From NCBI RefSeq assembly GCF_011045125.1, contig NZ_JAAKZF010000005.1, forward strand, positions 62,001 to 126,000: a DNA stretch of 64,000 nucleotides. Direction: 5' to 3'. A model generated the notes under the pieces. The model searched no databases. It was not told the DNA's origin and was given only the letters and a program-made list of their open reading frames with translations. Every line of letters starts with the position of its first letter. Position 1 is the stretch's first letter. The position numbers and the translations under genes are program-made. Shown piece after piece: positions 8,574 to 60,861 of the stretch. The DNA is from Allomesorhizobium camelthorni. GTDB taxonomy: Bacteria; Pseudomonadota; Alphaproteobacteria; Rhizobiales; Rhizobiaceae.

Positions 8574-8903
8574 ATGAACTGGATTGCGATCGGCTCGATC
8601 ACCGACATTCCGCAGCGCGGGGCGCGTTGCGTGGCGACGCCGCAGGGAAAGATCGCCGTCTTCCGCACGGCTGAAGACCAGGTCTTCGCCACCGAGGACC
8701 ATTGCCCGCACAAGGGCGGGCCGCTCAGCCAGGGCATCGTGCACGGCGCGGCGGTGACCTGCCCGCTGCACAATTGGGTGATCTCGCTTGAAACAGGCAA
8801 GGCGCTCGGCGCCGACGAGGGCGCGGTGAAGACGATCCCGGTAAGGGTCGAAGGCGAAAGGCTGTTCATCGCGCTCGAAGCGCTGGCGTCAAAGGCAGCA
8901 TGA
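8574..8903 (+). CDS. nirD: Nitrite reductase small subunit NirD (Rieske-like)
   Basis: The product is 109 aa, the small Rieske-fold partner of NirB. The cluster-ligand positions are present: CPHKGGPL and then CPLHNWVI. Many stand-alone NirD proteins lack these ligands, so this one belongs to the ligand-containing group. ATG 8574 follows GGAG in the nirB 3' end; a GTG at 8565 is an alternative. It is separated from nasA by 220 bp that are mostly a palindromic repeat. Confidence 0.88.
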   Translation: MNWIAIGSITDIPQRGARCVATPQGKIAVFRTAEDQVFATEDHCPHKGGPLSQGIVHGAAVTCPLHNWVISLETGKALGADEGAVKTIPVRVEGERLFIALEALASKAA

Positions 8904-8933
8904 CAGTCTTGGCGATGTCCGCACCCTACGTTG

Positions 8934-9088
8934 CCCCCCTCTGTCCTGCCGGACATCTCCCCCACAAGGGGGGAGATCGGCCGCCTGCTTTGCTGGCGCG
9001 TGTCTTGCGATGCTGGCGATTAGCGAAAGCCGAAATGACAGCCAATCTCCCCCCTCGTGGGGGAGATGTCCGGCAGGACAGAGGGGGG
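8934..9088. repeat. Palindromic repeat pair, family A, between nirD and nasA
   Basis: The left module (8934-8977) begins CCCCCCTCTGTCCTGCCGG and ends in a small hairpin, ATCTCCCCC...GGGGGGAGAT. The right module (9045-9088) is its inverted copy, ending GAGGGGGG. The 67-nt core contains CTGGCGATTAGCGAAAG, which recurs in the cores of the ispE, nasA and 15.2-kb copies. No reading frame for a transposase is present. The copy lies in the untranslated gap of the nitrate operon and could form a large RNA hairpin. Confidence 0.9.
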
Positions 9089-9123
9089 CGCGACAGAACG
9101 CCCTGCCTCGAAGGCAGGCGTCA

Positions 9124-12024
9124 ATGACAAATATGCAGGCAGCCGAGGTGAGGACCACCTGCCCCTATTGCGGGGTGGGTTGCGGCGTGCTGGCGAAGGT
9201 CGCCGCGGACGGCGAGGTGAGCGTTCGCGGCGACCCCGACCATCCGGCGAATTTCGGCCGGCTCTGCTCCAAGGGCTCGGCGCTGGCCGAAACGCTGGGG
9301 CTGGAGGAGCGGCTGCTGCACCCGGAAATCCGCGGCCGCCGCGCCGGCTGGGACGAGGCGCTCGACCTCGTCGCCTCGACATTTTCCGGAACGATCGCCG
9401 AGCACGGCCCGGATTCGGCCGCGTTCTACGTCTCCGGCCAGTTGCTGACCGAGGATTACTACGTCGCCAACAAGCTGATGAAGGGGTTCATCGGCTCCGC
9501 CAATATCGACACCAACTCCCGCCTCTGCATGGCCTCGTCGGTCGCCGGCCACCGCCGCGCCTTCGGCTCGGACACCGTGCCCGGAACCTATGAGGATCTG
9601 GAACTCGCGGATCTGGTCGTGCTCGTCGGCTCCAATCTCGCCTGGTGCCATCCGGTGCTCTACCAGCGCATCGCGGCGGCGAAGGAGAAGCGGCCCGGCA
9701 TGAAGGTTGTGCTGGTCGATCCGCGCCGGACGATGACCGCCGATATCGCCGACCTGCATCTCGCCATCGCGCCGGACGGCGATGTCGCGCTGTTTTTGGG
9801 GCTGCTTGCTTTCCTCGCCGAACGCGAAGCGCTCGACCGCGCCTATATCGCCGCGCACACCACCGGCTTCGAAGAGGCGCTGGCCGCCGCGTCGGAGCTG
9901 GGAATGGCGGAGATCGCACGCCGGAGCGGCCTCGACGAGGAGATGCTTCTCCGCTTCTTCGCGCTTTTCGCCGAGACACCGAAGACAGTCACCGTCTACA
10001 GCCAGGGCGTCAACCAGTCGGCGTCGGGCACCGACAAGGTCAACGCCATCATCAACTGCCATCTGGCGACCGGCCGCATCGGCAGGCCGGGGGCAGGGCC
10101 GTTTTCGGTCACCGGCCAACCCAACGCAATGGGCGGCCGCGAGGTCGGCGGGCTCGCCAACATGCTCGCCGCCCATATGGAGATCGAAAATCCCGTCCAC
10201 CGCGACCGCGTGCGGCGCTTCTGGAACGCGCCGACAGTCGCGGAGAAGCCGGGGCTGAAAGCGGTCGATATGTTCCGCGCCGTGGCCGACGGGCGCATCA
10301 AGGCGCTGTGGATCATGGCCACCAATCCGGTGGATTCGATGCCTGACGCCGATGTGGTCGAGGCGGCGATCAAGGTCTGCCCCTTCGTTGTCGTCTCCGA
10401 TGTCTCCGCCGAGGCCGATACCATCCGCCATGCCCACGTAAAGCTGCCGGCCGCCGCCTGGGGCGAGAAGGACGGCACGGTGACCAATTCCGAGCGCCGG
10501 ATCTCGCGCCAGCGGCCTTTCCTGCCGATGCCCGGCGAGGCCCGGCCCGACTGGTGGATCATCGCCGAGGTGGGCAAGCGGATGGGGTTTGAAGAGGCGT
10601 TTTCCCACACGTCTCCAGCCGAGATATTTGCCGAACACGCCGCATTGTCGGGCTTCGAGAATGGCGGGGAGAGGGATTTCGACATCGGCGTTCATGCCGA
10701 CGTGGGCGCCGGCGCATATGAGGAGTTGGAGCCGTTCCAATGGCCGGCGCCAGCGACTGGAAGCACCCCCCTCTGGCCTGCCGGCCATCTCCCCCTCAAG
10801 GGGGGAGATCAGCCCGCATCCGCGGTTTCGCCAATCGCAGGCGTTGCAGAAGGAGCGACGAGATTGAAGCTGCCAATCTCCCCCCTTGAGGGGGAGATGG
10901 CCGGCAGGCCAGAGGGGAGTGGAGGCGATTTTACTCAATCCTCCATCACCCCGACCCCGGCGCGGCGCGCCGACCCTCTCCTCAAGGGGGAGCGTAAGGC
11001 CGCGAGCCGCTTCTTCGCCGATGGCGGGTTCTACACGCTCGACCGCAAGGCACGCTTCGTCGCCGTCGGCCCGACCGCCGAAACCAGGCCCGGCGATGAA
11101 TACCCGCTGATCCTCAACACCGGCCGGGTGCGCGACCACTGGCACACGATGACCAGGACCGGCCAGAGCCCGCGCCTCTCACAGCATCTGGCGGAGCCTT
11201 TCGTTGAAATTCATCCGGCCGACGCCGCCCGCCGCGGCATTGGCGACGCCGACATCGTGCGCGTGTCGTCCACCCGCGGCGACGTGCTGGTCCGCGCGCT
11301 GCTGACCGGCCGCCAGCGCCAGGGCAGCGTGTTCGCGCCGATGCACTGGACCGACAGATTTTCGTCCAGGGGCCGCATCGACGCCCTTGTCGCGCCGCTT
11401 ACCGACGCGATTTCCGGCCAGCCGGCGCTGAAGCATGCGGCGGTTCGCACCGAAAAATTTCCGGCGCGGGCATTCGGCTTTGCAGTCACGAGCCAACGCC
11501 CGGTCTCGATCGACGCCGATTATTGGGCGCTGGCCAGATGCCGGCATGGGTGGCGTGTCGAACTGGCCTTCGCCGAGGAGAAGACCGACTGGGCTGCCTT
11601 CGCGCAAACGCTGTTCGGCGCGGATGAGGGAGCGGAACTTCTCGCCTATCACGACCGCGACGCCGGACAGCACCGCATAGCCGCATTCGATGGCGACAGG
11701 CTTGCCGGCGCGCTGTTCGCCGCACCGGGACCTGTGGCCGTCTCGCGCGGCTGGGCAGCCGACCAGCTCGGCGAAACCCATGCCGGCCAGCGAAGCCGCT
11801 TCCGCATCGTGGCGGGACGCGCCGGCGCCGATCGGCCCGACGCGGGCGCGATGGTCTGCTCCTGCTTCTCAGTCGGGGCAAACCAGATCGCCGCAGCCGT
11901 CGCCGCCGGCTGCGCCAGCGTCGAGGCTATCGGAGAAGTTCTCAAGGCGGGAACCAATTGCGGCTCATGCCGGTCCGAGATCAGGGCGATCGTCAACGCC
12001 GGCCGCGTCCAGGCCGCCGAATAA
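9124..12024 (+). CDS. nasA: Assimilatory nitrate reductase, molybdopterin catalytic subunit
   Basis: The product is 966 aa. It reduces nitrate to nitrite in the cytosol. The N-terminus has the [4Fe-4S] motif CPYCGVGCGV...CSKG, then the molybdopterin oxidoreductase domain with the MGGREVGGLANML block and a dinucleotide-binding domain around residues 640-760. The C-terminus is a BFD-like [2Fe-2S] domain (CSCFSVG...CGSC), as in NasA. The start at 9124 is chosen because the upstream extension is repeat DNA. Residues about 548-625 come from repeat sequence inserted in frame (10766-10993), between the two main domains. The frame is intact. Confidence 0.92.
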   Translation: MTNMQAAEVRTTCPYCGVGCGVLAKVAADGEVSVRGDPDHPANFGRLCSKGSALAETLGLEERLLHPEIRGRRAGWDEALDLVASTFSGTIAEHGPDSAAFYVSGQLLTEDYYVANKLMKGFIGSANIDTNSRLCMASSVAGHRRAFGSDTVPGTYEDLELADLVVLVGSNLAWCHPVLYQRIAAAKEKRPGMKVVLVDPRRTMTADIADLHLAIAPDGDVALFLGLLAFLAEREALDRAYIAAHTTGFEEALAAASELGMAEIARRSGLDEEMLLRFFALFAETPKTVTVYSQGVNQSASGTDKVNAIINCHLATGRIGRPGAGPFSVTGQPNAMGGREVGGLANMLAAHMEIENPVHRDRVRRFWNAPTVAEKPGLKAVDMFRAVADGRIKALWIMATNPVDSMPDADVVEAAIKVCPFVVVSDVSAEADTIRHAHVKLPAAAWGEKDGTVTNSERRISRQRPFLPMPGEARPDWWIIAEVGKRMGFEEAFSHTSPAEIFAEHAALSGFENGGERDFDIGVHADVGAGAYEELEPFQWPAPATGSTPLWPAGHLPLKGGDQPASAVSPIAGVAEGATRLKLPISPLEGEMAGRPEGSGGDFTQSSITPTPARRADPLLKGERKAASRFFADGGFYTLDRKARFVAVGPTAETRPGDEYPLILNTGRVRDHWHTMTRTGQSPRLSQHLAEPFVEIHPADAARRGIGDADIVRVSSTRGDVLVRALLTGRQRQGSVFAPMHWTDRFSSRGRIDALVAPLTDAISGQPALKHAAVRTEKFPARAFGFAVTSQRPVSIDADYWALARCRHGWRVELAFAEEKTDWAAFAQTLFGADEGAELLAYHDRDAGQHRIAAFDGDRLAGALFAAPGPVAVSRGWAADQLGETHAGQRSRFRIVAGRAGADRPDAGAMVCSCFSVGANQIAAAVAAGCASVEAIGEVLKAGTNCGSCRSEIRAIVNAGRVQAAE
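10766..10917. repeat. Palindromic repeat pair inserted in frame in nasA
   Basis: The left module (10766-10809) and right module (10876-10917) are inverted copies. Both arms carry the change GTCC/GGAC to GGCC/GGCC relative to the 8934 copy, so the arms have changed together. It is read as [15 protein letters not shown], then a spacer, then [16 protein letters not shown]. There is no stop codon and no frameshift. The 152-bp element plus flanks keeps the nasA frame. Confidence 0.9.
10941..10993. repeat. Second GC-rich repeat fragment in nasA
   Basis: CATCACCCCGACCCC...GACCCTCTCCTCAAGGGGGAG follows the main element. It reads as SITPTPARRADPLLKGERK and is absent from the conserved enzyme architecture. 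It resembles the second arm of the family B repeats (CACCCCCACC...AAGGGGGAG) at 22.7 and 23.7 kb. It probably arose by a separate insertion next to the first. Confidence 0.6.
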
Positions 12025-15211: not shown

Positions 15212-15242
15212 GCCATGCTTGTCAGGCTGGCGTTCCTTCGCG

Positions 15243-15398
15243 CCCCCCTCTGTCCTGCCGGACATCTCCCCCAACCCGGGGGGAGATCGGCCGTCCGCTT
15301 TGGTTTCGCCAATCTCCAGCGCCGGCGGTTTGCGAGATCATCGAAGAGAGTGCAATCTCCCCCCTTGTGGGGGAGATGTCCGGCAGGACAGAGGGGGG
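15243..15398. repeat. Palindromic repeat pair, family A, in the 362-bp gap before the solute-binding protein gene
   Basis: Modules at 15243-15287 and 15355-15398 are inverted copies with a 67-nt core. The right flank CAACGTAGGGCGCGG is the inverse of the left flank of the 8934 copy (CCGCACCCTACGTTG), so the conserved unit extends about 15 bp past the G run. The rest of the gap (15399-15573) holds no gene I can support, only the ribosome site GGGAG for the next gene. Confidence 0.88.
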
Positions 15399-15573
15399 CA
15401 ACGTAGGGCGCGGAGGTGGCCTGGCCGCCTGCCAAGCACCGACGCGTCCGAACGTAGCCATTATTCTCGGCTGCGGAACGCCGCACAACAACTGCGGAAA
15501 CGCGAACATTTCGGCTTCCGACCTGGAAGTATTATTTCCCTTACGAGAGCACGACTTTTCAGCGGGAGATACC

Positions 15574-21986: not shown

Positions 21987-23510
21987 ATGCCGGTCGAGGT
22001 CATCCTGCCCAAGGTCGACATGGACATGGCGACCGGCCAGATCTCGCGCTGGTTCGTCGAGGAGGGTGCTGTGGTCAAGAAGGGCGACGTGCTCTTCGAG
22101 ATCGAGACCGACAAGGCGGCGATGGAAATCGACGCACCCGCCAGCGGCACGATCCGCGACATCACCGGCAGGGAAGGGGTGGATATCCCGGTCGGCGAGG
22201 CAGTGGCCTGGATTTATGAGGCGGGGGAAAGCGTCGGCGCGGCCGGGAAGAACAAAGCTCCAATCCCCGCCCGTGTGGGGGAGATGTCGCCGAAGGCGAC
22301 AGAGGGCGGCGCTGTCCCGCCGGCTCCTCAGGTCGAAACTGAGGGGCAAACCGGAAATGGGGGGCGCCTTGCGTTGCCCCCCTCTGCCCTCCCGAGTGCT
22401 GATGGAGGGGCGGGCATCTCCCCCACAAGGGGGGAGATGAACCAAGCGCCTAGCGTCCGCGCCACGCCGCTCGCCCGCCGCATTGCGCGCGAAGGTGGGA
22501 TCGATATTGCGGCGGTGACCGGTTCAGGTCCGTATGGGCGCGTGGTGAAGGCTGATGTGGAGAAGGCGGCTGCGGCAGCGCCCTCCCTCCCCCTTGCGGG
22601 GAGGGTGTCGGCGGAGCCGACGGGTGGGGGTGGTTCCGCCTCGCCGTCTTCTCAAGCTTCGCCGCCCCCCTCTGCCCTGCCGGGCGAGATCGGCCAATCG
22701 TCCGAAACCGCATCTTCCTCGCCACCCCCACCCGGCCCCTCGGGCCACCCTCCCCGCAAGGGGGAGGGAGAAGAAGCGCTAAAACTCTTCGCGGAGGGCT
22801 CCTACGAACTCATCCCGCATGACAATATGCGCAAGACCATCGCCCGGCGGCTGGTCGAGGCGAAGTCGACCATCCCGCATTTCTATCTCACCCTCGACTG
22901 CGAACTCGATGCTTTGCTTGCGCTCAGGGCGCAGTTGAATGCCGCCGCGCCGGTGACGAAGACCGAAAAGGGCGAGGTCCCCGCCTACAAGCTGTCGGTC
23001 AACGATCTGATCATCAAGGCGATGGCGCTAGCGCTGCGCGACGTGCCGACGGCCAACGTCTCGTGGACCGAGACCGCCATGGTGCAGCACAGGCATGCCG
23101 ATGTCGGCGTGGCGGTGTCGATCCCCGGCGGACTGATCACGCCGATCGTGCGCAAGGCCGACGAAAAGACGCTGTCGGTGATCTCCAACGAGATGAAGGA
23201 CATGGCCGCGCGTGCGCGCAACAAGAAGCTGAAGCCGGAGGAATACCAGGGCGGCACCACGGCCGTGTCCAATCTCGGCATGTTCGGCATCAAGGATTTT
23301 TCCGCCGTCATCAACCCGCCGCACGCGACCATCCTGGCGGTCGGCGCGGGCGAAGAGCGGGCGGTGGTCAGGAACGGCGAGGTGAAGATCGCCACGATGA
23401 TGTCGGTGACGCTGTCGACCGACCACCGCGCCGTCGACGGCGCGCTCGGGGCCGAGCTGCTGGTCGCCTTCAAGCGCCATGTCGAAAATCCGATGGGGAT
23501 GCTGGTTTAA
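21987..23510 (+). CDS. Dihydrolipoamide acyltransferase (E2) with repeat-derived linkers
   Basis: The product is 507 aa. The order is lipoyl domain (1-78, lipoyl Lys43 in ETDKAAME), linker, E3-binding domain (about 157-193, RATPLARRIAREGGID), linker, and catalytic domain (about 270-507, with His480 in STDHRAVDGA). Family members are usually 420-450 aa. The excess lies in the two linkers, residues 92-151 and 199-261, which are encoded by GC-rich palindromic repeats in frame. The catalytic residues are intact. No dihydrolipoamide dehydrogenase gene follows, so E3 must come from another complex. Confidence 0.88.
   Translation: MPVEVILPKVDMDMATGQISRWFVEEGAVVKKGDVLFEIETDKAAMEIDAPASGTIRDITGREGVDIPVGEAVAWIYEAGESVGAAGKNKAPIPARVGEMSPKATEGGAVPPAPQVETEGQTGNGGRLALPPSALPSADGGAGISPTRGEMNQAPSVRATPLARRIAREGGIDIAAVTGSGPYGRVVKADVEKAAAAAPSLPLAGRVSAEPTGGGGSASPSSQASPPPSALPGEIGQSSETASSSPPPPGPSGHPPRKGEGEEALKLFAEGSYELIPHDNMRKTIARRLVEAKSTIPHFYLTLDCELDALLALRAQLNAAAPVTKTEKGEVPAYKLSVNDLIIKAMALALRDVPTANVSWTETAMVQHRHADVGVAVSIPGGLITPIVRKADEKTLSVISNEMKDMAARARNKKLKPEEYQGGTTAVSNLGMFGIKDFSAVINPPHATILAVGAGEERAVVRNGEVKIATMMSVTLSTDHRAVDGALGAELLVAFKRHVENPMGMLV
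22262..22438. repeat. Palindromic repeat pair forming the first E2 linker
   Basis: Arm 1 (22262-22309) reads ATCCCCGCCCGTGTGGGGGA then GATGTCGCCGAAGGCGACAG. Arm 2 (22377-22438) ends ATCTCCCCCACAAGGGGGGA. The arms point outward-in (G-run end inside), the reverse of the 8934 copy. It is translated as PARVGEMSPKATEGG, a spacer, then LPPSALPS...GISPTRGEM. Confidence 0.85.
22582..22769. repeat. Palindromic repeat pair, family B, forming the second E2 linker
   Basis: Arm 1 (22582-22634) has TCCCCCTTGCGGGGAGGG, then GTCGGCGGAGCCGAC and GGGTGGGGGTGG. Arm 2 (22722-22769) runs CCACCCCCACC to CTCCCCGCAAGGGGGAGGGA. A partial family A piece (CCCCCCTCTGCCCTGCCGGG) lies between them. The same family B unit recurs at 23524. 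It encodes PSLPLAGRVSAEPTGGGG and GHPPRKGEGE in the E2 frame. Confidence 0.85.
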
Positions 23511-34762: not shown

Positions 34763-36037
34763 ATGTTCGTATCCTTTTTTCCGAGGCCGAAGCTGTTTTT
34801 CATTTCGGCCGCCGTCTGGAGCCTCGCCGGGGTTCTTTTCTGGTTCTTCGGCGGTGAACAGCTTGGCGCCGCGTTCGGCTTGCCGCCGGCGGCGTCAGAC
34901 GTGCCGCCGGTGCTCGGCATACCGGTCTTCTGGACCAGGCCGTTTATCTGGTTCTACATCTATTTCGGCTTCTTGGTCGGCGCTTTCTATGCCTTCTGGC
35001 GCTTCTATTCCCCGCATTCCTGGCTGAACTGGTCGATCCTGGGCTCTTCGCTGATCCTGTTTTCCACCTATCTTTCGGTGCAACTCTACGTCGCGATCAA
35101 CAATTGGCGCGGCCCCTTCTTCGATCTCTTCCAGAAAGCGATTACGACGCCTGGCTCCGTGTCCCCAGGCGAACTCTATTCGATGTTCTGGATCTATGCC
35201 TGGATCGGCATGACCAGCATGGGGCTGTTCGTCATCACCCGGTTCTACGTCAGCCACTGGATCTTCCGCTGGCGCAGCGCCATGAACGACTACTACATGG
35301 CCTACTGGCAAAGGCTGCGGCACATCGAAGGCGCCTCGCAGCGCGTGCAGGAGGACACGATGCGGTTCTCCACGACCATGGAGGGCCTCGGCGTTTCCCT
35401 GATCGATTCGGCCATGACATTGATTGCATTTTTGCCGCTGCTCGCTGCGCTCTCAACGCATGTTAAGGTCCTTCCGCTCGTCGGCGAGATTCCCTATTCG
35501 CTGGTTGTCGCAGCGGTCACCTGGTCGATTTTCGGAACGGCGCTGCTCATGGTGGCCGGCATCAAGCTGCCGGGGCTGGAGTTCAAGAACCAGCGTGTCG
35601 AGGCAGCTTACCGCAAGGAACTCGTCTACGGCGAGGATGAAGCTGCGCGCGCTCAGCCGCCGACAGTCGCCGAACTCTTCTCCCATGTGCGCCGCAACTA
35701 TTTCAGACTGTACTTCCATTATGCATATTTCAATGTAGTGCGGTCGGGCTATCTGCAGGCCGACGCCATCTTCTCCAGCTTGATTCTGATTCCGACCATT
35801 GCAGCCGGAGCGATCACGCTGGGCATATGGCAGCAGGTTGCGACCGCCTTCAGCCAGGTCAGCTCGTCGTTTCAGTATCTGGTGAACGCCTGGCCGACGA
35901 TCGTCGAGCTGATATCGATCCACAAGCGCCTGCGCGCCTTCGAGGCGACACTGGAGGGTGCTCCGCTGCCCGAAATCGACCGGCAATATCTCGAAAAGGA
36001 GGCGCTTTTGGGCGAGAAGGCGGCGACGGTGGAATAA
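34763..36037 (+). CDS. bacA: BacA/SbmA-family peptide transporter
   Basis: The product is 424 aa with six or more membrane helices and the SbmA_BacA signatures: [51 protein letters not shown]. In rhizobia and Brucella BacA imports antimicrobial peptides, affects very-long-chain lipid A modification, and is needed for survival in host cells. It stands alone with its own start and ribosome site (AGAGGAA). It converges on the deacetylase gene with a 19-bp gap holding a GGGCGG/CCGCCC hairpin. Confidence 0.93.
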
Positions 36038-36056
36038 GCTTGGGCGCCGGGCGGTT

Positions 36057-37064
36057 TCAGCCGCCCGCCGTCTCGGATTCGGGTGCGACGCCCGACCGCC
36101 GCGAATCTTGCAGGTAGCCGCTGTAGCTAGTGCACTCGACATCCTGCTTCACGCAGACCTCTTCGGCGAAGCGCTCCAGCGCGCGCCAATAGGCGCCGCC
36201 ATTCATCAGCGTGAAGTGGAAGCCGATCTGCAGCGGAATGCGCTCGCCGGAATATTGCGCGTCGAAGGCTGCCCGAAACGCTTCAAGTGAGCGCGCCTCG
36301 AACGCCGCTGCCTCGCCGGCGCGTTCCAGGCCGCCGGAATGGCGCACGAACAGATTGTAGTCCATGGCGATCACCCGCCGCGAAGCCGGCCCTTCGCTGA
36401 TCTGCGGCAGGGCGAAGCGGGTCACCCCGCCGGCTGCTTCCGGTTCCGCCGGCCCGCGCGAGACGCCGCTCGCGTCATAGGCGAATTTCGCCTCGGACAG
36501 CGCCGCGTAGAGCGCTTTGCTCGTCGACAGATAGGGCGCGCGAAAGCCGGAGATTTCGGTCTCCGCGAATTTTCGCCAGTCACCCGGTTCGCCGGCAATG
36601 CCGTTGATCGCATAGGCGTCCCGCAGGATCGTCGAGAAGGATGCGAATTCGGCGAGCCAGTCGGCCTTGCTCCAGTTCTTGCCGTCGAAATGGCCGCAGC
36701 CATGGCTGGCGATCTCGTGTCCCTCCGACCGCGCCAGCCGGATCTGCGCAAGCCGCGCCGCCACCTCGTCCTTCGACTGGGCGAAACCGACATTGGATTT
36801 GCCTGCGCCCTTGCCGGGCGCGTTGTATTCACGGCGCGTTTCCTTCGAAAGCAGGAAAACGCAGGACAGGAAATAGGTGAAGCGCGCGCCGGTCCTCGCC
36901 GCGAGCGTGCGGCTGCGCTGCCACTGCGCCAGGTCATGCGCCCCGTCGAAGGAGATGATGACGTGCTGGATTGGCCGGGCGCCCGAATGAGCGATGCTTG
37001 AAACCGAAGTGGAAAGAAGGGCGCAAGCGGCGACACAAACGCGGAACGCAACAGACATTAGCAT
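36057..37064 (-). CDS. Secreted polysaccharide deacetylase-family protein
   Basis: The product is about 335 aa with a signal peptide (VCVAACALLSTSVSSIAHS). The NodB-type domain has IISFDGAHD, the metal-binding pair in HEIASHGCGHFDG and FRAPYL. Possible starts are ATG at 37064 or 37058; neither has a clear ribosome site. It probably deacetylates a cell-wall or extracellular glycan, but substitutions in the first motif (FDGAHD instead of TFDDG) leave activity uncertain. Confidence 0.8.
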   Translation of the reverse strand: MLMSVAFRVCVAACALLSTSVSSIAHSGARPIQHVIISFDGAHDLAQWQRSRTLAARTGARFTYFLSCVFLLSKETRREYNAPGKGAGKSNVGFAQSKDEVAARLAQIRLARSEGHEIASHGCGHFDGKNWSKADWLAEFASFSTILRDAYAINGIAGEPGDWRKFAETEISGFRAPYLSTSKALYAALSEAKFAYDASGVSRGPAEPEAAGGVTRFALPQISEGPASRRVIAMDYNLFVRHSGGLERAGEAAAFEARSLEAFRAAFDAQYSGERIPLQIGFHFTLMNGGAYWRALERFAEEVCVKQDVECTSYSGYLQDSRRSGVAPESETAGG

Positions 37065-47900: not shown

Positions 47901-48981
47901 CGGCAGGATCCTTCGAGGCGATGCTTTCGGTGGCGACCACCCACCATCCGGGCTGGCGCGCCTGGATTTCGGCGGCCGCGCGGGCGGCCTCGCCGCTGGT
48001 TTCGAACAGTCCGAAGCAGGTGGCGCCCGAACCGGACATGCGGGCAAAGCCCGCGCCGGCGGATGTCAGCGCTTCGAGGGACTGGGCGATGGCGGGGGCG
48101 ATGGAGACGGCCGGAGCTTGCAGGTCATTGCGGGTGGAGGCGAGCCAGCGGCAAATGTCGCCAAATGCAAGTTGCCCCTCATCCTTGACGAGCGGCAGCG
48201 GCGGCAATCCTGGATTTTCCCGTGATGTCAGCGCCGAGAACACCTCGGGCGTTGACACCGGGACGCCCGGATTGACCAGCACCATCGCCAGCGCCGGGAA
48301 GCCCGCGGCTGGCTCTATCTGCTCGCCGATTCCACGCGCGATGAGCGGCTTGGTGTAAAGGCACATCGGCACGTCGGCGCCGAGGTCGCGACCGATTTTG
48401 GCAAGCTGTTCCGAGGTGAGCCCGAACCTGCATAGCCTGTTCAGCGCAGTCAGCGTCGCCGCCGCGTCGCTCGACCCGCCGCCGATGCCGGAAGCGACGG
48501 GCAGGTGCTTCGTGAGATGTATCGATACCGGCTGTTGTTTGCGGCCGCTTGTCCGACCCCCCTCTGTCCTGCCGGACATCTCCCCCTCAAGGGGGGAGAT
48601 TGGCAGTTTCGGCGCAACCGCTATTCCTGCGACGCTGGCGATTGGCGAAAGACATGCGGCCGGCTCAATCTCCCCCCTTGAGGGGGAGATGTCCGGCAGG
48701 ACAGAGGGGGGTACCATGGCGAGTAGGTGCGCCCGTCGCAACATATCCCTCGCGCGCACCACTAGATTACCGCCGTCGAGCGGGATCTCGGCGCCGAACG
48801 GGCCGCTGGTCGAAAAGGAATCCTCGGACGCGGCGGCGACCGTCACCCGATCGCCGTGCCTGGTGAAGACCGCCAGGCTTTCGATCAGGTGAAAACCGTC
48901 CGGCCGGTGGCCGGTGACATGCAGAGCGAGATTGATCTTGGCCGGCGCGTGCTCGGCCAGTGATGATGCGCTGAGGTCCAC
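47887..48981 (-). CDS. ispE: 4-diphosphocytidyl-2-C-methyl-D-erythritol kinase, with inserted repeat
   Basis: The product is 364 aa; usual length is about 290. GHMP-kinase motifs are intact: APAKINLALHVTG at the N-terminus, LPVASGIGGGSSDAAA for ATP binding and MSGSGATCFGLF. It phosphorylates CDP-methylerythritol in the essential MEP isoprenoid pathway. Residues about 91-142 are encoded by a palindromic repeat pair (48557-48711), inserted in frame just before the ATP-binding loop. The GTG start at 48981 has AAGGA and lies 1 bp from the stop of the small membrane protein gene. Confidence 0.9.
   Translation of the reverse strand: MDLSASSLAEHAPAKINLALHVTGHRPDGFHLIESLAVFTRHGDRVTVAAASEDSFSTSGPFGAEIPLDGGNLVVRARDMLRRAHLLAMVPPSVLPDISPSRGEIEPAACLSPIASVAGIAVAPKLPISPLEGEMSGRTEGGRTSGRKQQPVSIHLTKHLPVASGIGGGSSDAAATLTALNRLCRFGLTSEQLAKIGRDLGADVPMCLYTKPLIARGIGEQIEPAAGFPALAMVLVNPGVPVSTPEVFSALTSRENPGLPPLPLVKDEGQLAFGDICRWLASTRNDLQAPAVSIAPAIAQSLEALTSAGAGFARMSGSGATCFGLFETSGEAARAAAEIQARQPGWWVVATESIASKDPADDAA
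48557..48711. repeat. Palindromic repeat pair inserted in frame in ispE
   Basis: Modules at 48557-48600 and 48668-48711 are inverted copies with a 67-nt core containing CTGGCGATTGGCGAAAG. Size (155 bp) and arrangement match the copy at 8934. In the ispE frame it reads [15 protein letters not shown], a spacer, then [15 protein letters not shown]. No stop codon occurs. Confidence 0.92.
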
Positions 48982-55211: not shown

Positions 55212-56150
55212 GTGACCTTGCCTGCCCACATGCATCCCAGCCGCTCGTTTCAGGGGCTGATCCTGACGCTCCACAATTACTGGGCCGATTATGGCTGCGT
55301 GGTGTTGCAGCCCTACGACATGGAGGTCGGCGCCGGCACCTTCCACCCGGCCACCACGCTGCGCGCGCTCGGCCCGAAACCGTGGCGCGCTGCCTATGTG
55401 CAGCCGTCGCGCCGGCCCAAGGACGGTCGCTACGGCGAGAACCCGAACCGGCTGCAGCATTATTACCAATACCAGGTGATCCTGAAGCCGAACCCGCCGG
55501 ACCTGCAGGAGCTCTATCTCGGCTCGCTGGCGGCCATCGGCATCGACCCGCTCACCCACGACATCCGCTTCGTCGAGGACGATTGGGAAAGCCCGACGCT
55601 CGGCGCCTGGGGGCTCGGCTGGGAATGTTGGTGCGACGGCATGGAAGTGTCGCAGTTCACCTATTTCCAGCAGGTCTGCGGCATCGAATGCGCGCCGGTG
55701 GCCGGCGAGCTCACCTACGGGCTGGAGCGGCTGGCCATGTATGTGCAGGGCGTCGACAATGTCTACGACCTTAACTTCAACGGCCGCGAGGGTGCGGATA
55801 AAGTCACTTATGGCGACGTCTTCCTGCAGGCCGAGCAGGAATATTCCAGGCACAATTTCGAACACGCCGACACGGCGATCCTGCTGCGGCATTTCGACGA
55901 CGCCGAGGCGGAATGCCAGGCGTTGTTGAAGGCGGGGGCGCCAGCGGCAAACGACAATCTGGCGCTCCACCGCTTGGTCTTCCCCGCCTACGACCAGTGC
56001 ATCAAGGCGAGCCACGTCTTCAACCTGCTCGACGCGCGCGGCGTGATCTCGGTGACCGAACGGCAGAGCTATATTTTGAGGGTCCGCAATCTGGCCAAGG
56101 CGTGCGGCGAAGCGTTCCTGCAGACGGAGGCCGGCGGGCTGGCTGCCTGA
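55212..56150 (+). CDS. glyQ: Glycyl-tRNA synthetase alpha subunit
   Basis: The product is 312 aa, clear GlyQ throughout: [38 protein letters not shown] and [19 protein letters not shown] with a Cys for Val. It charges tRNA-Gly as an alpha2-beta2 enzyme with GlyS. GTG is the start. Unlike many genomes, a gap of about 450 bp with a small reverse gene separates it from glyS. Confidence 0.95.
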
Positions 56151-56151
56151 A

Positions 56152-56346
56152 TCAGGCGGCGGCCACCCCGGCCAGGGTAGTGCCGGCCACTGTGAACTCC
56201 GGAAACCTGATCTGGCTGGCGGAGCCCGCCATCGTCTGAAGCGCCTTGCGCACGCCGGGCATTCGCACCTCATCCGATCCGCCGAGACATGCCGCCAGGC
56301 AGGCGCTGAGCGCGAGAGACTGGAGAAGGGTCGAGGCTGTTTTCAT
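56152..56346 (-). CDS. Small putative lipoprotein, 64 aa
   Basis: It begins MKTASTLLQSLALSACLAAC, a lipoprotein-like signal with a lipobox (LSAC or LAAC), followed by a short mature part. It lies between glyQ and glyS on the opposite strand, 1 bp from the glyQ stop. Function unknown. The 258 bp to glyS hold no other gene I can support. Confidence 0.6.
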   Translation of the reverse strand: MKTASTLLQSLALSACLAACLGGSDEVRMPGVRKALQTMAGSASQIRFPEFTVAGTTLAGVAAA

Positions 56347-56604
56347 GGTCGTTGTCCGAGACGTTCAGTGTCGATCGTTCTGTGTTCCGGGTCGGCGAAA
56401 TGGTTCACACACAGGCCGCAGATTTCCCGGTCTGAGCGTTGGTCGCTTCAGCGCAGCATTCGGTTCATGGAAATCTGCCCCAAGGACGAACGGGCCCGCC
56501 GCGCCCCGACAGGCGGGCGGATGATTTTTGCGAAGCGCTGCGAAGGGTGACAGCGCGCGGCCGACTTGCTATGCCCGCGCGAACCTTTTCCTAGAGACCG
56601 AACG

Positions 56605-59319
56605 ATGCCCGATCTGCTGTTAGAATTACGATCCGAAGAAATTCCGGCCCGCATGCAGCGCAAGGCGGCCGGCGATCTCAGGAAGATGGTGACCGACGGT
56701 CTGGTCGAGGCCGGGCTGACCTATGACGCCGCCCGCGAATATTTTACGCCGCGCCGGCTGACGCTAGACGTGCGCGGCCTGACCGCGCGCTCGAAGGATG
56801 TGCGCGAGGAGAAGAAGGGCCCGAGCACCAAGGCGCCGGAGCAGGCGATCGCCGGCTTCCTGCGCTCGGCGGGGCTCGACGACATCAGCCAGGCGCATGT
56901 GCATTCCGACCCGAAGAAGGGCGATTTCTACGTCGCGCATATCGTCAAGCCGGGCAGGGCGGCGGAGGAGATCATCGCCGAGCTGATCCCCGAGATCATC
57001 CGCGACTTCCCGTGGCCGAAATCGATGCGCTGGGGCGCGGCGTCGGCAAAGCCCGGCTCGCTGCGCTGGGTGCGGCCGCTACAGTCGATCGTCTGCACCT
57101 TCGGCCCCGAGACCGAGGAGCCGGTGGTCGTCGATTTCGAGGTCGACGGCATCCGCGCCGGCAACGTCACCTACGGCCACCGTTTCCATGCGCCGGATGC
57201 GATCACGGTGCGCCGCTTCGCCGATTATGTGGCCAAGCTCGAGGCGGCGAAGGTCGTGCTCGACGCCGACCGCCGCAAGGAGATCATCCTTTCCGACGCG
57301 CGGAACCTTGCCTTCGCCAACGGGCTGGAGCTCATCGAGGACGAAGGACTGCTGGAGGAGGTGGCCGGGCTGGTCGAATGGCCGGTGGTGCTGATGGGCG
57401 AGTTCGAGCAGGAGTTCCTCGACATCCCGGCCGAAGTGATCCGGCTGACGATCCGGGCCAATCAGAAGTGTTTCGTGACGCGCAGTCTTTCCTCCCCCCT
57501 TGCGGGGGAGATGCCCGGCAGGGCAGAGGGGGGCGCTGTCCCGCCAACATCTCAGCTTCCGGCCAGTTCTGACCGCCACGGTTCGCACTTTACGTTGCCC
57601 CCCTCTGTCCTTCCGGGCATCTCCCCCTCAAGGGGGGAGATCAGCCAACCGCCCCTCTCCAACCGCTTCATCCTCACCGCCAATATCGAGGCGAGTGACG
57701 GCGGCAAGGAGATCGCGTACGGCAATGGCAAGGTGGTGCGCGCCAGGCTTTCGGACGCGCTGTATTTCTGGAAGACCGACCAGTCGGACCTGCCCGACCT
57801 CGACCAACTGAATGCCTCCGCCGAAAAATTCGGGCTCGACCTCAAAAAGCCGCTCGACCAGCGCATGGCGCGGCTCGACCATCTCGGCGTGACCTTCCAC
57901 GCCAAGCTCGGCACGCAAGGCGAGCGGGTGGAGCGCATCGCGCGGCTGGCCGAAGAGATTGCGCCGATCGTGGCGCGGAGCGTTGGCGATCAGCCAATCT
58001 CCCCCCTTGAGGGGGAGATGCCCGGCAGGGCAGAGGGGGGTCGGTTATCGGATAATCGCGACGGACCCCCCTCTGGGCTGCCGCCCATCTCCCCCTCAAG
58101 GGGGGAGATTGCACACCTCGCCCGCCGCGCTTCCGTTCTGGCCAAAGCCGACCTGACCACGGAAGTGGTGGGCGAGTTCCCCGAGCTGCAGGGCGCGATG
58201 GGCCGTAAATACGCGGCTCTCCAGAGCGAGCATCCGTCGGTAGCCGCCGCGATCGAGGAGCACTACAAGCCGCAGGGCCCGTCGGACCGCGTGCCGACCG
58301 ACCCGGTTTCCGTTGCCGTGGCGCTGGCCGACAAGCTCGACATGCTGGTCGGTTTCTGGGCGATTGACGAGAAGCCGACTGGTTCGAAGGACCCGTATGC
58401 GCTTAGGAGGGCGGCGCTTGGGGTGATCCGGATCGTCGTGGAGAATGGAGTGCGCGTTAGGATTTTGGAACGAGCGGTCAATCCGCTTCGCTTTTCGCGA
58501 ATACACGCCAATGTCGCGGAGCAGCGACAGCTAAGCCATTTAGAAGCGTCCCAAAATCCGAAGAGTACCATCCGACTGTTAGATCTTGCAGCTGAGGCTA
58601 CAGAGATCGGCAATAGATTTCGATTTGGCGCAAAAATCCAACGCGACGAATACCCTGTTCTTTCCGACCTCCTCTCCTTCTTCCACGATCGTCTGAAGGT
58701 CTATCTCCGCGATCAGGGTGCGCGGCACGATCTGATCGATGCCGTGCTGGCGGGTGGAGGAAGCGCGCCGGTAATCTCCCCCCTTGAGGGGGAGATGTCG
58801 GCTAAGCCGACAGAGGGGGGTCGGAACATCGTCGAGGCACCCCCCTCTGCCCTGCCGGGCATCTCCCCCTCAAGGGGGGAGATTGGCCAATCTTCAAACG
58901 ACGACCTGCTCATGATCGTGCGCCGCGTCGAAGCCTTGTCCACCTTCCTCGAAACCGAGGACGGGAAAAACCTGCTGGCCGGGACCAAGCGCGCGGTAAA
59001 CATTCTGTCGATCGAGAGCAAGAAGGGCACGCTCATCGCCGAGGCCGTCGATCCGGCGCTTTTGCGCGAGGATGCGGAAAAAGCGCTGTTCGCCGCGGTG
59101 AACCAGGCCGAGAGCCAGGCCGCCCAAGCGATTCAGAATGAAGACTTTTCCGCCGCCATGCGCGCGCTTAGCGCATTGCGTGAACCGGTTGATTCATTCT
59201 TTGAACGCGTTCTCGTGAATGATGAGGATATCGCCATCCGCGCCAACCGGCTGGCGCTGCTCGCCCGCATCCGCGCGGCGACAGGTCAGGTCGCGGATTT
59301 CTCGAAAATCGCGGGGTAG
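56605..59319 (+). CDS. glyS: Glycyl-tRNA synthetase beta subunit with multiple in-frame insertions
   Basis: The product is 904 aa; usual length is about 690-750. The GlyS core is intact: [75 protein letters not shown]. Three palindromic repeat pairs are read through in frame, giving extra residues at about 296-346, 465-502 and 724-760. A further AT-richer block (residues about 613-680) also looks inserted. Each addition falls at a boundary between conserved blocks. No stop or frameshift occurs, so the gene should still make functional, enlarged protein. Confidence 0.92.
57491..57641. repeat. Repeat pair 1 in glyS
   Basis: Arms at 57491-57533 and 57598-57641, G-run ends facing inward (the reverse of the 8934 arrangement). 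It reads [14 protein letters not shown], a spacer, then [16 protein letters not shown]. It sits between [10 protein letters not shown] and [10 protein letters not shown], blocks that are nearly adjacent in normal GlyS. Confidence 0.92.
57997..58109. repeat. Repeat pair 2 in glyS
   Basis: Arms at 57997-58040 and 58066-58109 with a 25-nt spacer. It reads [23 protein letters not shown], then [15 protein letters not shown]. The second arm carries GGGCTGCCGCCC in place of GTCCTGCCGGAC. Confidence 0.92.
58774..58883. repeat. Repeat pair 3 in glyS
   Basis: Arms at 58774-58820 and 58840-58883 with a 19-nt spacer. It reads [23 protein letters not shown], then [14 protein letters not shown]. The first arm uses the GTCGGCTAAGCCGAC stem, the second GCCCTGCCGGGC. 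It lies in the loop between DLIDAVLA and [13 protein letters not shown]. Confidence 0.92.
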
Positions 59320-59321
59320 CC

Positions 59322-59780
59322 TCAGTAGGTAACCGGCGATTCCGGAGCCGGCGCGTCAGCCGGTTCCTTCTTGTGCGCGGCGGATTGCCGGCTTGGCGCC
59401 GGCAGCGCGTCGGCCGGTACCGAGGCCTGCACGGGCTGTGCGGGCATGGAGGCAGACGAAAACGCCGCGCCGGCGATGCCGCCGCGCAGCACCATCGGCG
59501 CAAAGCCGCGGCGCGGCTTTTTCGGCTTCTCGCCGACCGAGGCGACGTTTTCATAGGCGACATCGGGCGGGCCGAAGGCGAGGATGGAGCGGGTGACCAT
59601 GCGGCGCTCGTTGGTCTCCACGGCGTCTTCCGGCATGTCCGGCGGGCCGGCCACGATCATGGACGGCCCGATCGGCCCCGTCATCGGCGCCAGCGCCACG
59701 ATCGACGAGGCGTCAGCCGACCCCGCACAAGCCGTCGCAGCGCCAAGGACAAAAAGCTTCCAGAACGATCGCACCGGCAT
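59322..59780 (-). CDS. Putative secreted Pro/Ala-rich protein
   Basis: The product is about 152 aa with a likely signal (WKLFVLGAATACAGSADAS), then VALAPMTGPIGPSMIV and a Pro/Ala/Ser-rich tail. No family recognised. Met at 59780 is chosen; 59798 is an alternative. It converges on glyS with a 2-bp gap. Confidence 0.6.
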   Translation of the reverse strand: MPVRSFWKLFVLGAATACAGSADASSIVALAPMTGPIGPSMIVAGPPDMPEDAVETNERRMVTRSILAFGPPDVAYENVASVGEKPKKPRRGFAPMVLRGGIAGAAFSSASMPAQPVQASVPADALPAPSRQSAAHKKEPADAPAPESPVTY

Positions 59781-59865
59781 GCTCCATTGCATTTCCACGC
59801 CGGTCCCTTATCAGTCCCGGGTTGATGCCGGCTTGAAGCGATGGACGGCATTTTAGCGATCGGGC

Positions 59866-60861
59866 ATGTCTAAAGGATTGCGGGAAGTGGCGGAAATTCG
59901 CAACGCGGCCGAGTCGATGGACGAGGCGCTGGCCCTGCTCAAGGCCGGCGAGATCGTCGCGATCCCGACCGAAACCGTCTATGGGCTGGCCGGCGACGCG
60001 ACCAATGGCGCTGCGGTGGCGAAGATATTCGAGGCCAAGGGCAGGCCGCGCTTCAACCCGCTGATCGCCCATGTCGCGACCATGGCGATGGCCGAGGAGA
60101 TCGCTGAATTCGATCAGCTGTCGCGAAAGCTGGCGGAAAAATTCTGGCCGGGCCCGCTGACGCTTGTGCTGCCGCTGAAGCCCGGCGGCGCGATCCATCC
60201 GCTGGTCACGGCCGGGCTCGATACGATAGCGCTGAGGATGCCGCGCGGCTTCGGCGCCAGGCTGATCGAGCGCCTGGGCCGGCCGCTCGCTGCGCCCAGC
60301 GCCAATTCGTCGGGCAGGATCAGCCCCACCACCGCCGCCGCCGTGGCGGACGACCTCTGCGACAGGATCCGGCTGGTGGTCGACGGCGGGGCGACGTCGG
60401 TCGGGCTGGAATCGACCATCGTCAAGGTCGAGGACGGAAAGCTGCGGCTGCTGCGGCCGGGCGGCATAGCCGCTGGGGAACTCGAGGCGGCAGCGGGCGC
60501 GGCGCTGCTTCGCGGCGCGAAAAACGGCGTCGAGGCGCCGGGCATGCTGGCTTCGCATTATGCGCCGGGCGCTCTGGTGCGGATTAACGCGGAGGATGTG
60601 GCGGCCGGCGAGGCGCTGCTGGCATTCGGGCCGGAACGCGCCAGAAATGCGGAAGGCGCGGTTGCGGTGCTCAACCTTTCCGAGACCGGCGATCTGCGCG
60701 AGGCTGCGAGCAACCTTTTCTCGCATCTCCAGGCGCTCGACCGCAGCGGCGCGAAAATGATCGCGGTCGAGCCGATACCATATGAGGGGCTGGGCGAGGC
60801 GATCAACGACCGGCTGTCGCGCGCCGCGGCGCCGCGTGACAGCGGCGCTTCGTATAAATAG
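59866..60861 (+). CDS. L-threonylcarbamoyladenylate synthase (Sua5/YwlC type)
   Basis: The product is 331 aa. The YrdC domain (about 20-205) has IPTETVYGLAGDA and KGRPRFNPL. A Sua5 C-terminal domain follows (HYAPGALV to the end). It makes threonylcarbamoyl-AMP for the t6A modification of tRNA. Essential in most bacteria. Confidence 0.93.
   Translation: MSKGLREVAEIRNAAESMDEALALLKAGEIVAIPTETVYGLAGDATNGAAVAKIFEAKGRPRFNPLIAHVATMAMAEEIAEFDQLSRKLAEKFWPGPLTLVLPLKPGGAIHPLVTAGLDTIALRMPRGFGARLIERLGRPLAAPSANSSGRISPTTAAAVADDLCDRIRLVVDGGATSVGLESTIVKVEDGKLRLLRPGGIAAGELEAAAGAALLRGAKNGVEAPGMLASHYAPGALVRINAEDVAAGEALLAFGPERARNAEGAVAVLNLSETGDLREAASNLFSHLQALDRSGAKMIAVEPIPYEGLGEAINDRLSRAAAPRDSGASYK

Follow-up and report, generated by a model that had tools for sequence, protein, structure and literature searches.

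Palindromic repeats at recurrent in-frame sites of the glycyl-tRNA synthetase beta-subunit gene in Allomesorhizobium camelthorni and its relatives

Introduction

The RPE are palindromic repeats of about 150 bp, belonging to several families, which lie in frame in unrelated genes and encode a conserved peptide (Ogata et al. 2000, 2002, as summarized in parts of the review PMC10969869); the same parts of that review treat the same mechanism as conceivable in other prokaryotes (PMC10969869). REP and REPIN sequences are described, in outline accounts of them, as short stem-loops that also occur in pairs. REP elements are moved by RAYTs. The Rhizobium-specific intergenic mosaic elements (RIME) of Osteras et al. 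(1995) are said to be repeats lying between the genes of rhizobia.

Here we analyse a stretch of 64 000 nucleotides from Allomesorhizobium camelthorni (the window), in which the gene for the beta subunit of glycine–tRNA ligase, glyS, carries three hairpin repeats. This observation, made in a first-pass annotation of the same DNA, is confirmed, and the interpretation given to it there is partly supported. We consider it very probable that the three repeat-bearing sites (sites 1–3) hold copies of a Rhizobiaceae hairpin repeat, which survive inside coding sequence because they lie in frame, in a single codon phase, at loops that tolerate filler; a fourth addition, site 4, stands apart from them.

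Results

The glyS gene and its inserts

The gene lies at 56605–59319 on the forward strand as a single uninterrupted frame, with its ATG at 56605 and its stop codon ending at 59319, and the GlyS of 904 aa originally read from it, in one open frame with no internal stop, stands. Membership of the GlyRS beta family is indicated both by curated models and by the predicted fold: the protein scored 681 bits against TIGR00211 (cut-off 300), matched PF02092 and DALR_1 in a Pfam scan, and has the fold of the known structure (see below). The Pfam and NCBIfam scans of GlyS returned nothing besides GlyRS and DALR models. A probable glyQ (alpha subunit) lies upstream at 55212–56150 on the same strand, judged by its translation and position. 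The first-pass annotation had held that a second intact glyS would tell against its reading; we looked for one and found none in the 7.30 Mb assembly (346 contigs), where glyS gave one full-length match and seven short ones, all seven falling on repeat copies. An alpha2-type GlyRS (TIGR00389) gave no match in the assembly, in a search whose control was positive in 14 of 14 genomes and above the cut-off in seven. Elsewhere in the window, ARAGORN reported one odd tRNA at 36023–36103 with a two-base undefined anticodon, which is perhaps spurious.

The three inserts are palindromic elements with the forward arm first and the reverse arm second (type B; in type A the reverse arm precedes the forward arm), all on the forward strand: site 1 at 57490–57648 (arms 57492–57534 and 57597–57639, 93% complementary), site 2 at 57995–58111 (arms 57995–58045 and 58061–58111, 90% complementary) and site 3 at 58772–58884 (arms 58773–58797 and 58860–58884, 100% complementary). 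Their predicted RNA hairpins have energies of −108.2, −103.2 and −90.2 kcal/mol, respectively, with z values of −9 to −11 against shuffles. Measured against the shortest relative (703 aa), they add 50, 43 and 46 aa; the 51, 38 and 37 extra residues claimed previously were near these values without equalling them. The earlier placement of the repeats, in frame and at junctions between conserved blocks, was correct, and repeat-derived inserts do appear, from the sequence, to be tolerated in this essential synthetase. The three inserts are not the whole of the enlargement, because a block without repeats at site 4, which the first-pass annotation did not list, adds about 60 aa more relative to the shortest relative and is the largest single addition.

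Intein and intron models are included in Pfam, NCBIfam and Rfam, and in a search for an intein or self-splicing intron no splicing domain was matched in GlyS (Pfam, NCBIfam) and no catalytic RNA in the region 56000–60000 (Rfam). The Rfam matches that did fall on the inserts in that region (mir-2545 and others) all lay below their gathering scores and were rejected as evidence of kinship.

The repeat unit and its abundance

The repeat unit is about 45 nt long and comprises two hairpins, ATCTCCCCCCTTGAGGGGGAGAT followed by a short stem showing compensated variation; in the 69 distinct units this second stem took the forms TCCGGCAGGA, CCCGGCAGGG, GCCGGCAGGC, GGCGGCAGCC, TCGGCGAAGCCGA, TCGCCGAAGGCGA and others. 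The 64 kb of the window hold 14 occurrences of the palindrome core at up to three mismatches, where 100 shuffles gave none, and the whole genome (G000, 7.3 Mb) contains 77 half sites at no more than one mismatch, against none for a reversed control pattern. The element belongs to a repeat widespread in Rhizobiaceae.

Type A pairs in this genome number 28 in the extracted loci (L008 repeating L031) plus three in the window, and at least two of these 31 lie inside genes, while type B is represented by the three glyS copies only. In three genomes of the genus the exact type B pattern, which misses the site 1 copy of the window because of its longer spacer, was found at two places in G000 and one in G002, all in glyS. 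Type A also lies between annotated genes in L165 and L166; the replicons on which it is found in this position are an S. meliloti pSymA (L165) and a Nitratireductor plasmid. The idea that stop codons force the type B order of arms was dropped, since the numbers of open frames are similar, 3.2 of six for type A (21 elements) and 3.6 of six for type B (14 elements).

Inspection by eye revealed no clear target-site duplication in the glyS pairs, and insert 2 had no match among phages by megablast. The search of the window's genome for a Y1 transposase gave a single partial Y1_Tnp match of 53 positions.

The same element in other genes

Within the window the element also occupies, in frame, both linkers of a PdhC/E2 protein (between the lipoyl, E3-binding and catalytic domains; 22227–22773, forward strand), and a type A copy lies in frame in a nitrate-reductase-like molybdopterin oxidoreductase, between PF00384 and PF01568 (10765–10920, forward strand). 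The gene for this oxidoreductase occupies 8845–12021, with a second type A copy (8930–9090) just upstream of its likely start; further type A copies at 15240–15400 and 48555–48710 lie close to where a solute-binding protein and a GHMP kinase probably start. The unit was found in frame in CobN, UvrB, an amidase and another E2 of the same genome as well, and the unrelated genes in which it resides in frame comprise GlyS, PdhC/E2, UvrD, UvrB, CobN, the amidase and a nasA-like gene.

Across 81 genomes of the family the exact type B pattern occurred at 19 places in 11 genomes. Of 17 such loci, ten lie in frame in recognised genes (GlyS five, assigned by flanking residues; UvrD three; UvrB one; CobN one), and the seven others carry no gene assignment, two of them having been scanned with Pfam in small frames only. 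The genus of G070, which on similarity to named GlyS may be Mesorhizobium, had 33 places in 18 of 41 genomes, and 18 of these loci were placed in the E2 linker (nine; five by Pfam and four by flanks), UvrD (three; two by Pfam and one by flanks) and GlyS (two, by flanks), with four unassigned or doubtful. The element-bearing E2 loci of that genus fall among L197–L213. Many of these E2, UvrD and GlyS places may represent one old inherited insertion, and the places in this genus were therefore not counted as independent events.

Type B thus appears, from the loci recovered, to lie mostly within genes. The view of glyS as the only target was abandoned: with the element also in frame in linkers of PdhC/E2, UvrD, UvrB, CobN and the nitrate-reductase-like protein, glyS is a hotspot rather than unique.

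Occupancy of the sites across relatives

For comparison we used 83 GlyS sequences, namely that of the window, those of two members of its genus (L039 and L040) and the best 80 of 560 named matches; the set is biased towards near kin, being chosen by match to the window's own protein. All 83 frames are free of stops. They span 703–959 aa (median 783), for which the 690–750 aa formerly expected of GlyS was too narrow a range. Recognised repeat inserts at the same three sites are present in 42 of the 83, at one site in 21, at two in 14 and at all three in seven, and the glyS of the window is not the peculiar copy that it had seemed. By site, 16, 25 and 29 sequences bear repeats at sites 1, 2 and 3, respectively, and 41 have no recognised repeat. 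Outside the four sites we saw only one insertion of at least 12 aa, a non-repeat insertion of 12 aa near reference positions 148–151.

On a tree of the cores of 82 sequences (L039 is absent from it), the fewest changes between repeat-bearing and empty states were 12, 17 and 14 at sites 1, 2 and 3, leaving out four, two and nine rows with unrecognised extensions, and 14, 17 and 17 when any extension of at least 5 aa was counted as filled; the tree was made by a quick method, with 23 of its 79 inner branches open, and such counts do not tell gain from loss. The GlyS of a sister genome (L040) has inserts 1 and 3 as in the window, with site 2 empty, and that of a near relative (L088), which shares 92% of the core DNA with the window, holds other repeats at all three sites. 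We conclude from these two comparisons that several events have struck favoured spots, which upholds one part of the earlier claim of independent insertions; the other part fails in that inserts 1 and 3 are common to the window and L040. L039 and L088 apparently represent one species.

By peptide label, the main type of insert is ISPL, and the others are RGGRAEGAGG, SGHLLP and RASKD. A division into four unrelated families was dropped, since DNA similarity links ISPL with RGGRAEGAGG inserts in 117 pairs (one of them 81% over 42 nt) and inserts labelled SGHLLP match both; the RGGRAEGAGG and SGHLLP inserts may be distant versions of the main element. The RASKD type, found in frame at site 1 of L039, L067, L088, L108 and L215, is clearly distinct, with one marginal DNA match to the other types, and at least two clearly different repeats use site 1.

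In a search across the order, 29 of 30 GlyS (all but L186) were extracted and the element was seen in one of them (L183, a family member, at site 2), although loci taken as best unbroken matches disfavour insert-bearing genes; six genes with broken matches were therefore added, of which five, all but L220, were readable. Among these five, two from other families are filled: L215 has a repeat of the RASKD type at site 1, and site 3 of L216 holds another repeat, so sites 1 and 3 are used outside the family too, and the proposal that filled sites are confined to it was discarded. The repeat-like insert at site 3 of L216 (the GlyS of G216) is in frame and reads TSPWGGEVGAERRVRG...PLTPTLSPPGRGG.

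Predicted structure

A fold model of GlyS built from 63 sequences, replacing one of 28 rows with a pLDDT of 61, had a mean pLDDT of 83.9 and a pTM of 0.80, with 585 of 904 residues at 90 or above. Mapping the insertions onto a GlyRS beta structure, as the first-pass annotation had advised, places the inserts in loops: the model matched the E. coli beta subunit (7yse_C) with Z 30.9 and an rmsd of 6.7 over 633 aligned residues. Over these residues the fold is common to the two proteins, and the window GlyS differs from the E. coli subunit in its three loops, modelled as unstructured, and its longer site 4. The interiors of the inserts (residues 301–343, 470–492 and 720–758) have pLDDT values of 35–45 and almost no secondary structure in the model, and the only other stretches below 50 are 142–155 and 520–522.

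In the model, site 1 lies between strands E290–294 and E351–359, aligning to about 290–298 of E. coli beta, and site 2 between helices H438–462 and H499–513, aligning shortly before or at 378–383, in the HD domain. This domain comprises residues 341–540 of E. coli GlyRS beta, as given in the portion of that report defining it (PMC8464048). Site 3 aligns to about 555–563, after the HD domain and before the anticodon-binding domain.

Site 4, a hypervariable segment

Site 4 is a segment of 74 aa without repeats (58447–58668, forward strand), aligned to about 500–518 of E. coli beta and predicted to be helical (H620–650 and H657–671, pLDDT about 70–86). An 80-aa slice covering it has a GC content of 0.51, compared with 0.65 in the rest of the gene, and a GC3 of 0.50, compared with 0.81. 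Searches with the window segment found no match in phages, plasmids or Pfam, nor in the 198 family genomes (of 199) other than its own, and Pfam gave nothing convincing for ten site 4 segments. Hypervariability at this position was also seen in L039–L124, L167–L196 and L215–L219.

Segments of at least 45 aa fall into 25 clusters among 51 near relatives and 29 among 56 sequences when the order set is included; the counts for segments of all lengths (36 of 83 and 62 of 112) are inflated by segments too short for the E-value. At least 30 changes of cluster are needed on the core tree (50 rows). Between clusters, blastn and six-frame tblastn yielded only short marginal matches and no convincing DNA kinship. 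Within clusters omega is 0.09–0.23, from which we take the segments to be selected as protein. Site 4 is probably a separate matter from the repeats, a selected protein segment for which unrelated ones are substituted between species.

One could go further and, tentatively, regard site 4 as an exchange site for unrelated, selected segments of foreign composition, perhaps favoured by a GlyRS-binding toxin, phage protein or inhibitor, with the adjoining palindromic element adapted to coding life, in one phase and with its main homes in the linkers of GlyS, E2 and UvrD; this combined reading is possible rather than probable, and a binding partner that favours change at site 4 is a guess. It is rather unlikely that site 4 is merely a fast-drifting loop and not an exchangeable segment. 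In favour of drift, the length of the site differs among members of the order, and its short versions are often no different from the gene in GC content; however, species pairs with cores 95–98% identical carry segments of different clusters in spite of the low omega within clusters, mean GC is 0.555 in the segments compared with 0.639 in the cores and is lower in 53 of the 57 segments of at least 45 aa (the four exceptions all belonging to one widespread cluster), and for two segments (L111/L194 and L047/L174) relatives are present elsewhere in the order, in other families.

Codon phase and evolution of the inserts

Every arm scored in the 83 GlyS, 50 of 50 forward and 51 of 51 reverse, has its ATC in phase 0, arms with more than two substitutions being left unscored; the arms form 44 close pairs in the order forward–reverse, one in the opposite order, and 11 lone arms. 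In six other kinds of gene the forward arms are in phase 0 in 23 of 23 cases, a 24th being excluded as lying upstream of a likely nasA-like start; altogether 73 of 73 scored forward arms, in seven kinds of gene, share one phase, in counts that tally descent-related sequences separately throughout. Reverse arms outside GlyS are in phase 0 in 16 of 21 cases, and the five off-phase ones lie in CobN (two), UvrB (one) and the nasA-like frame (two, one of them upstream of the start).

Among the 69 distinct units, 67 are open in phase 0, 64 in phase 2 and 41 in phase 1. The phase 2 peptide is basic (+3.5) and contains Cys in 51 of 69 units; the phase 0 peptide has a charge of −1.4 and contains Cys in two. 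We infer selection against the basic, Cys-bearing reading of phase 2, and the uniform phase could reflect a selected peptide.

At site 3 the window and L040 have a common spacer. A single base separates them in each of three G or C runs, and elsewhere they differ by another nine bases. Their phases differ between the first and third single-base differences and agree afterwards, so that the frame is kept. Single hairpins, left in frame as scars, are found at site 3 in L051, L057, L095 and L082 and at site 2 in L051, and would be products of deletion between two in-phase copies of ATCTCCCCC.

Three groups gave insert omega values of 0.49, 0.36 and 0.46 (the group with 0.36 being nested within that with 0.49), where the core gave 0.08; core values across all five groups compared were 0.08–0.12. 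The value of 0.66 for the inserts of the window and L040 is unreliable, as this comparison crosses the frameshifted stretch. In L059, L061 and L063, site 3 had a dN of 0 with a dS of 0.14 (omega 0), which would fit constraint or recent exchange better than drift. Insert dS was two- to threefold lower than core dS in four of the five groups, and higher than that of the core in the fifth (window and L040); the low values may mean that the palindrome is constrained as DNA or RNA or that copies are exchanged. Taken against the core, these omega and dS values suggest that constraint on the inserts is relaxed but not absent.

Constraint of this kind, with omega below 1 and one clade without amino-acid change, is also what would be expected if the inserts were co-opted linkers, that is, acidic disordered spacers rich in Pro, Gly and Ser and selected as such, for instance by easing rotation of HD/ABD. 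A large HD/ABD rotation upon tRNA binding is described for E. coli GlyRS in the section of that study concerned (PMC9908026), site 3 lies between the HD domain and the anticodon-binding domain, and the single phase of the 73 forward arms inside genes would agree with selection on the peptide. We nevertheless regard co-option as improbable, because 41 of the 83 GlyS do without a recognised repeat, a site filled in one GlyS may in a close relative be empty or hold a different repeat, and either the window or L040 reads part of its site 3 insert out of the other's phase. Although the mRNA might be cut at hairpins as strong as −90 to −108 kcal/mol (z −9 to −11), with RNase III as one candidate nuclease, or the protein might be processed, leaving GlyS to work as pieces, such removal is very improbable, as all 83 frames are open across the inserts and single-base differences are compensated, neither of which removal from RNA would require, and as the scans of GlyS and of 56000–60000 gave only GlyRS and DALR models and Rfam matches below gathering scores.

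Discussion

A coding palindromic element does occupy this essential gene, and among the relatives compared it does so recurrently. Under our preferred reading, that of hairpin-repeat copies surviving at filler-tolerant loops, the element would move by transposition, ribosomes would read through the strong mRNA hairpins, as the kept frame suggests, and the inserts would remain in the finished protein, presumably with no positive function.

The best-known coding palindromic elements are those of Rickettsia, according to the part of the review that treats them (PMC10969869); here such elements are met in bacteria of the soil, within an essential enzyme whose structure is known, and in dozens of species. 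The stages of occupation are visible together, as empty sites, filled sites, sites holding another repeat, scars and frame-compensated copies, and the GlyRS inserts provide a natural map of insertion tolerance and a route to asking by what steps selfish DNA turns into protein. A separate question, posed by site 4, is why unrelated segments occupy one place of an essential synthetase in close species. A literature search with most subscription journals outside its scope brought up no account of palindromic elements lying in frame in genes of Rhizobiales, nor of a hypervariable segment of GlyS.

Of the known systems, REP and REPIN sequences resemble the element in being short stem-loops, also paired; the arms of the element are longer, it resides in frame in genes, and the Y1 transposase domain is represented in the genome by one partial match. 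RIME can be set beside type A by description, not by sequence, since type A lies between annotated genes on S. meliloti pSymA (L165), whereas type B lies mainly in genes. NCBIfam includes RPE models, and none was among the NCBIfam matches of GlyS at an E-value of 0.001. In its habits the element resembles the RPE: both are palindromic repeats of about 100–150 bp, present in many copies and resident in frame in unrelated genes. The glyS element differs from the RPE in its free-living Rhizobiaceae host, its two-arm layout, the single phase of its forward arms and its repeated use of the same sites of one gene, where scars and compensated changes can be seen. The element works like an RPE, the likeness shown here being one of behaviour.
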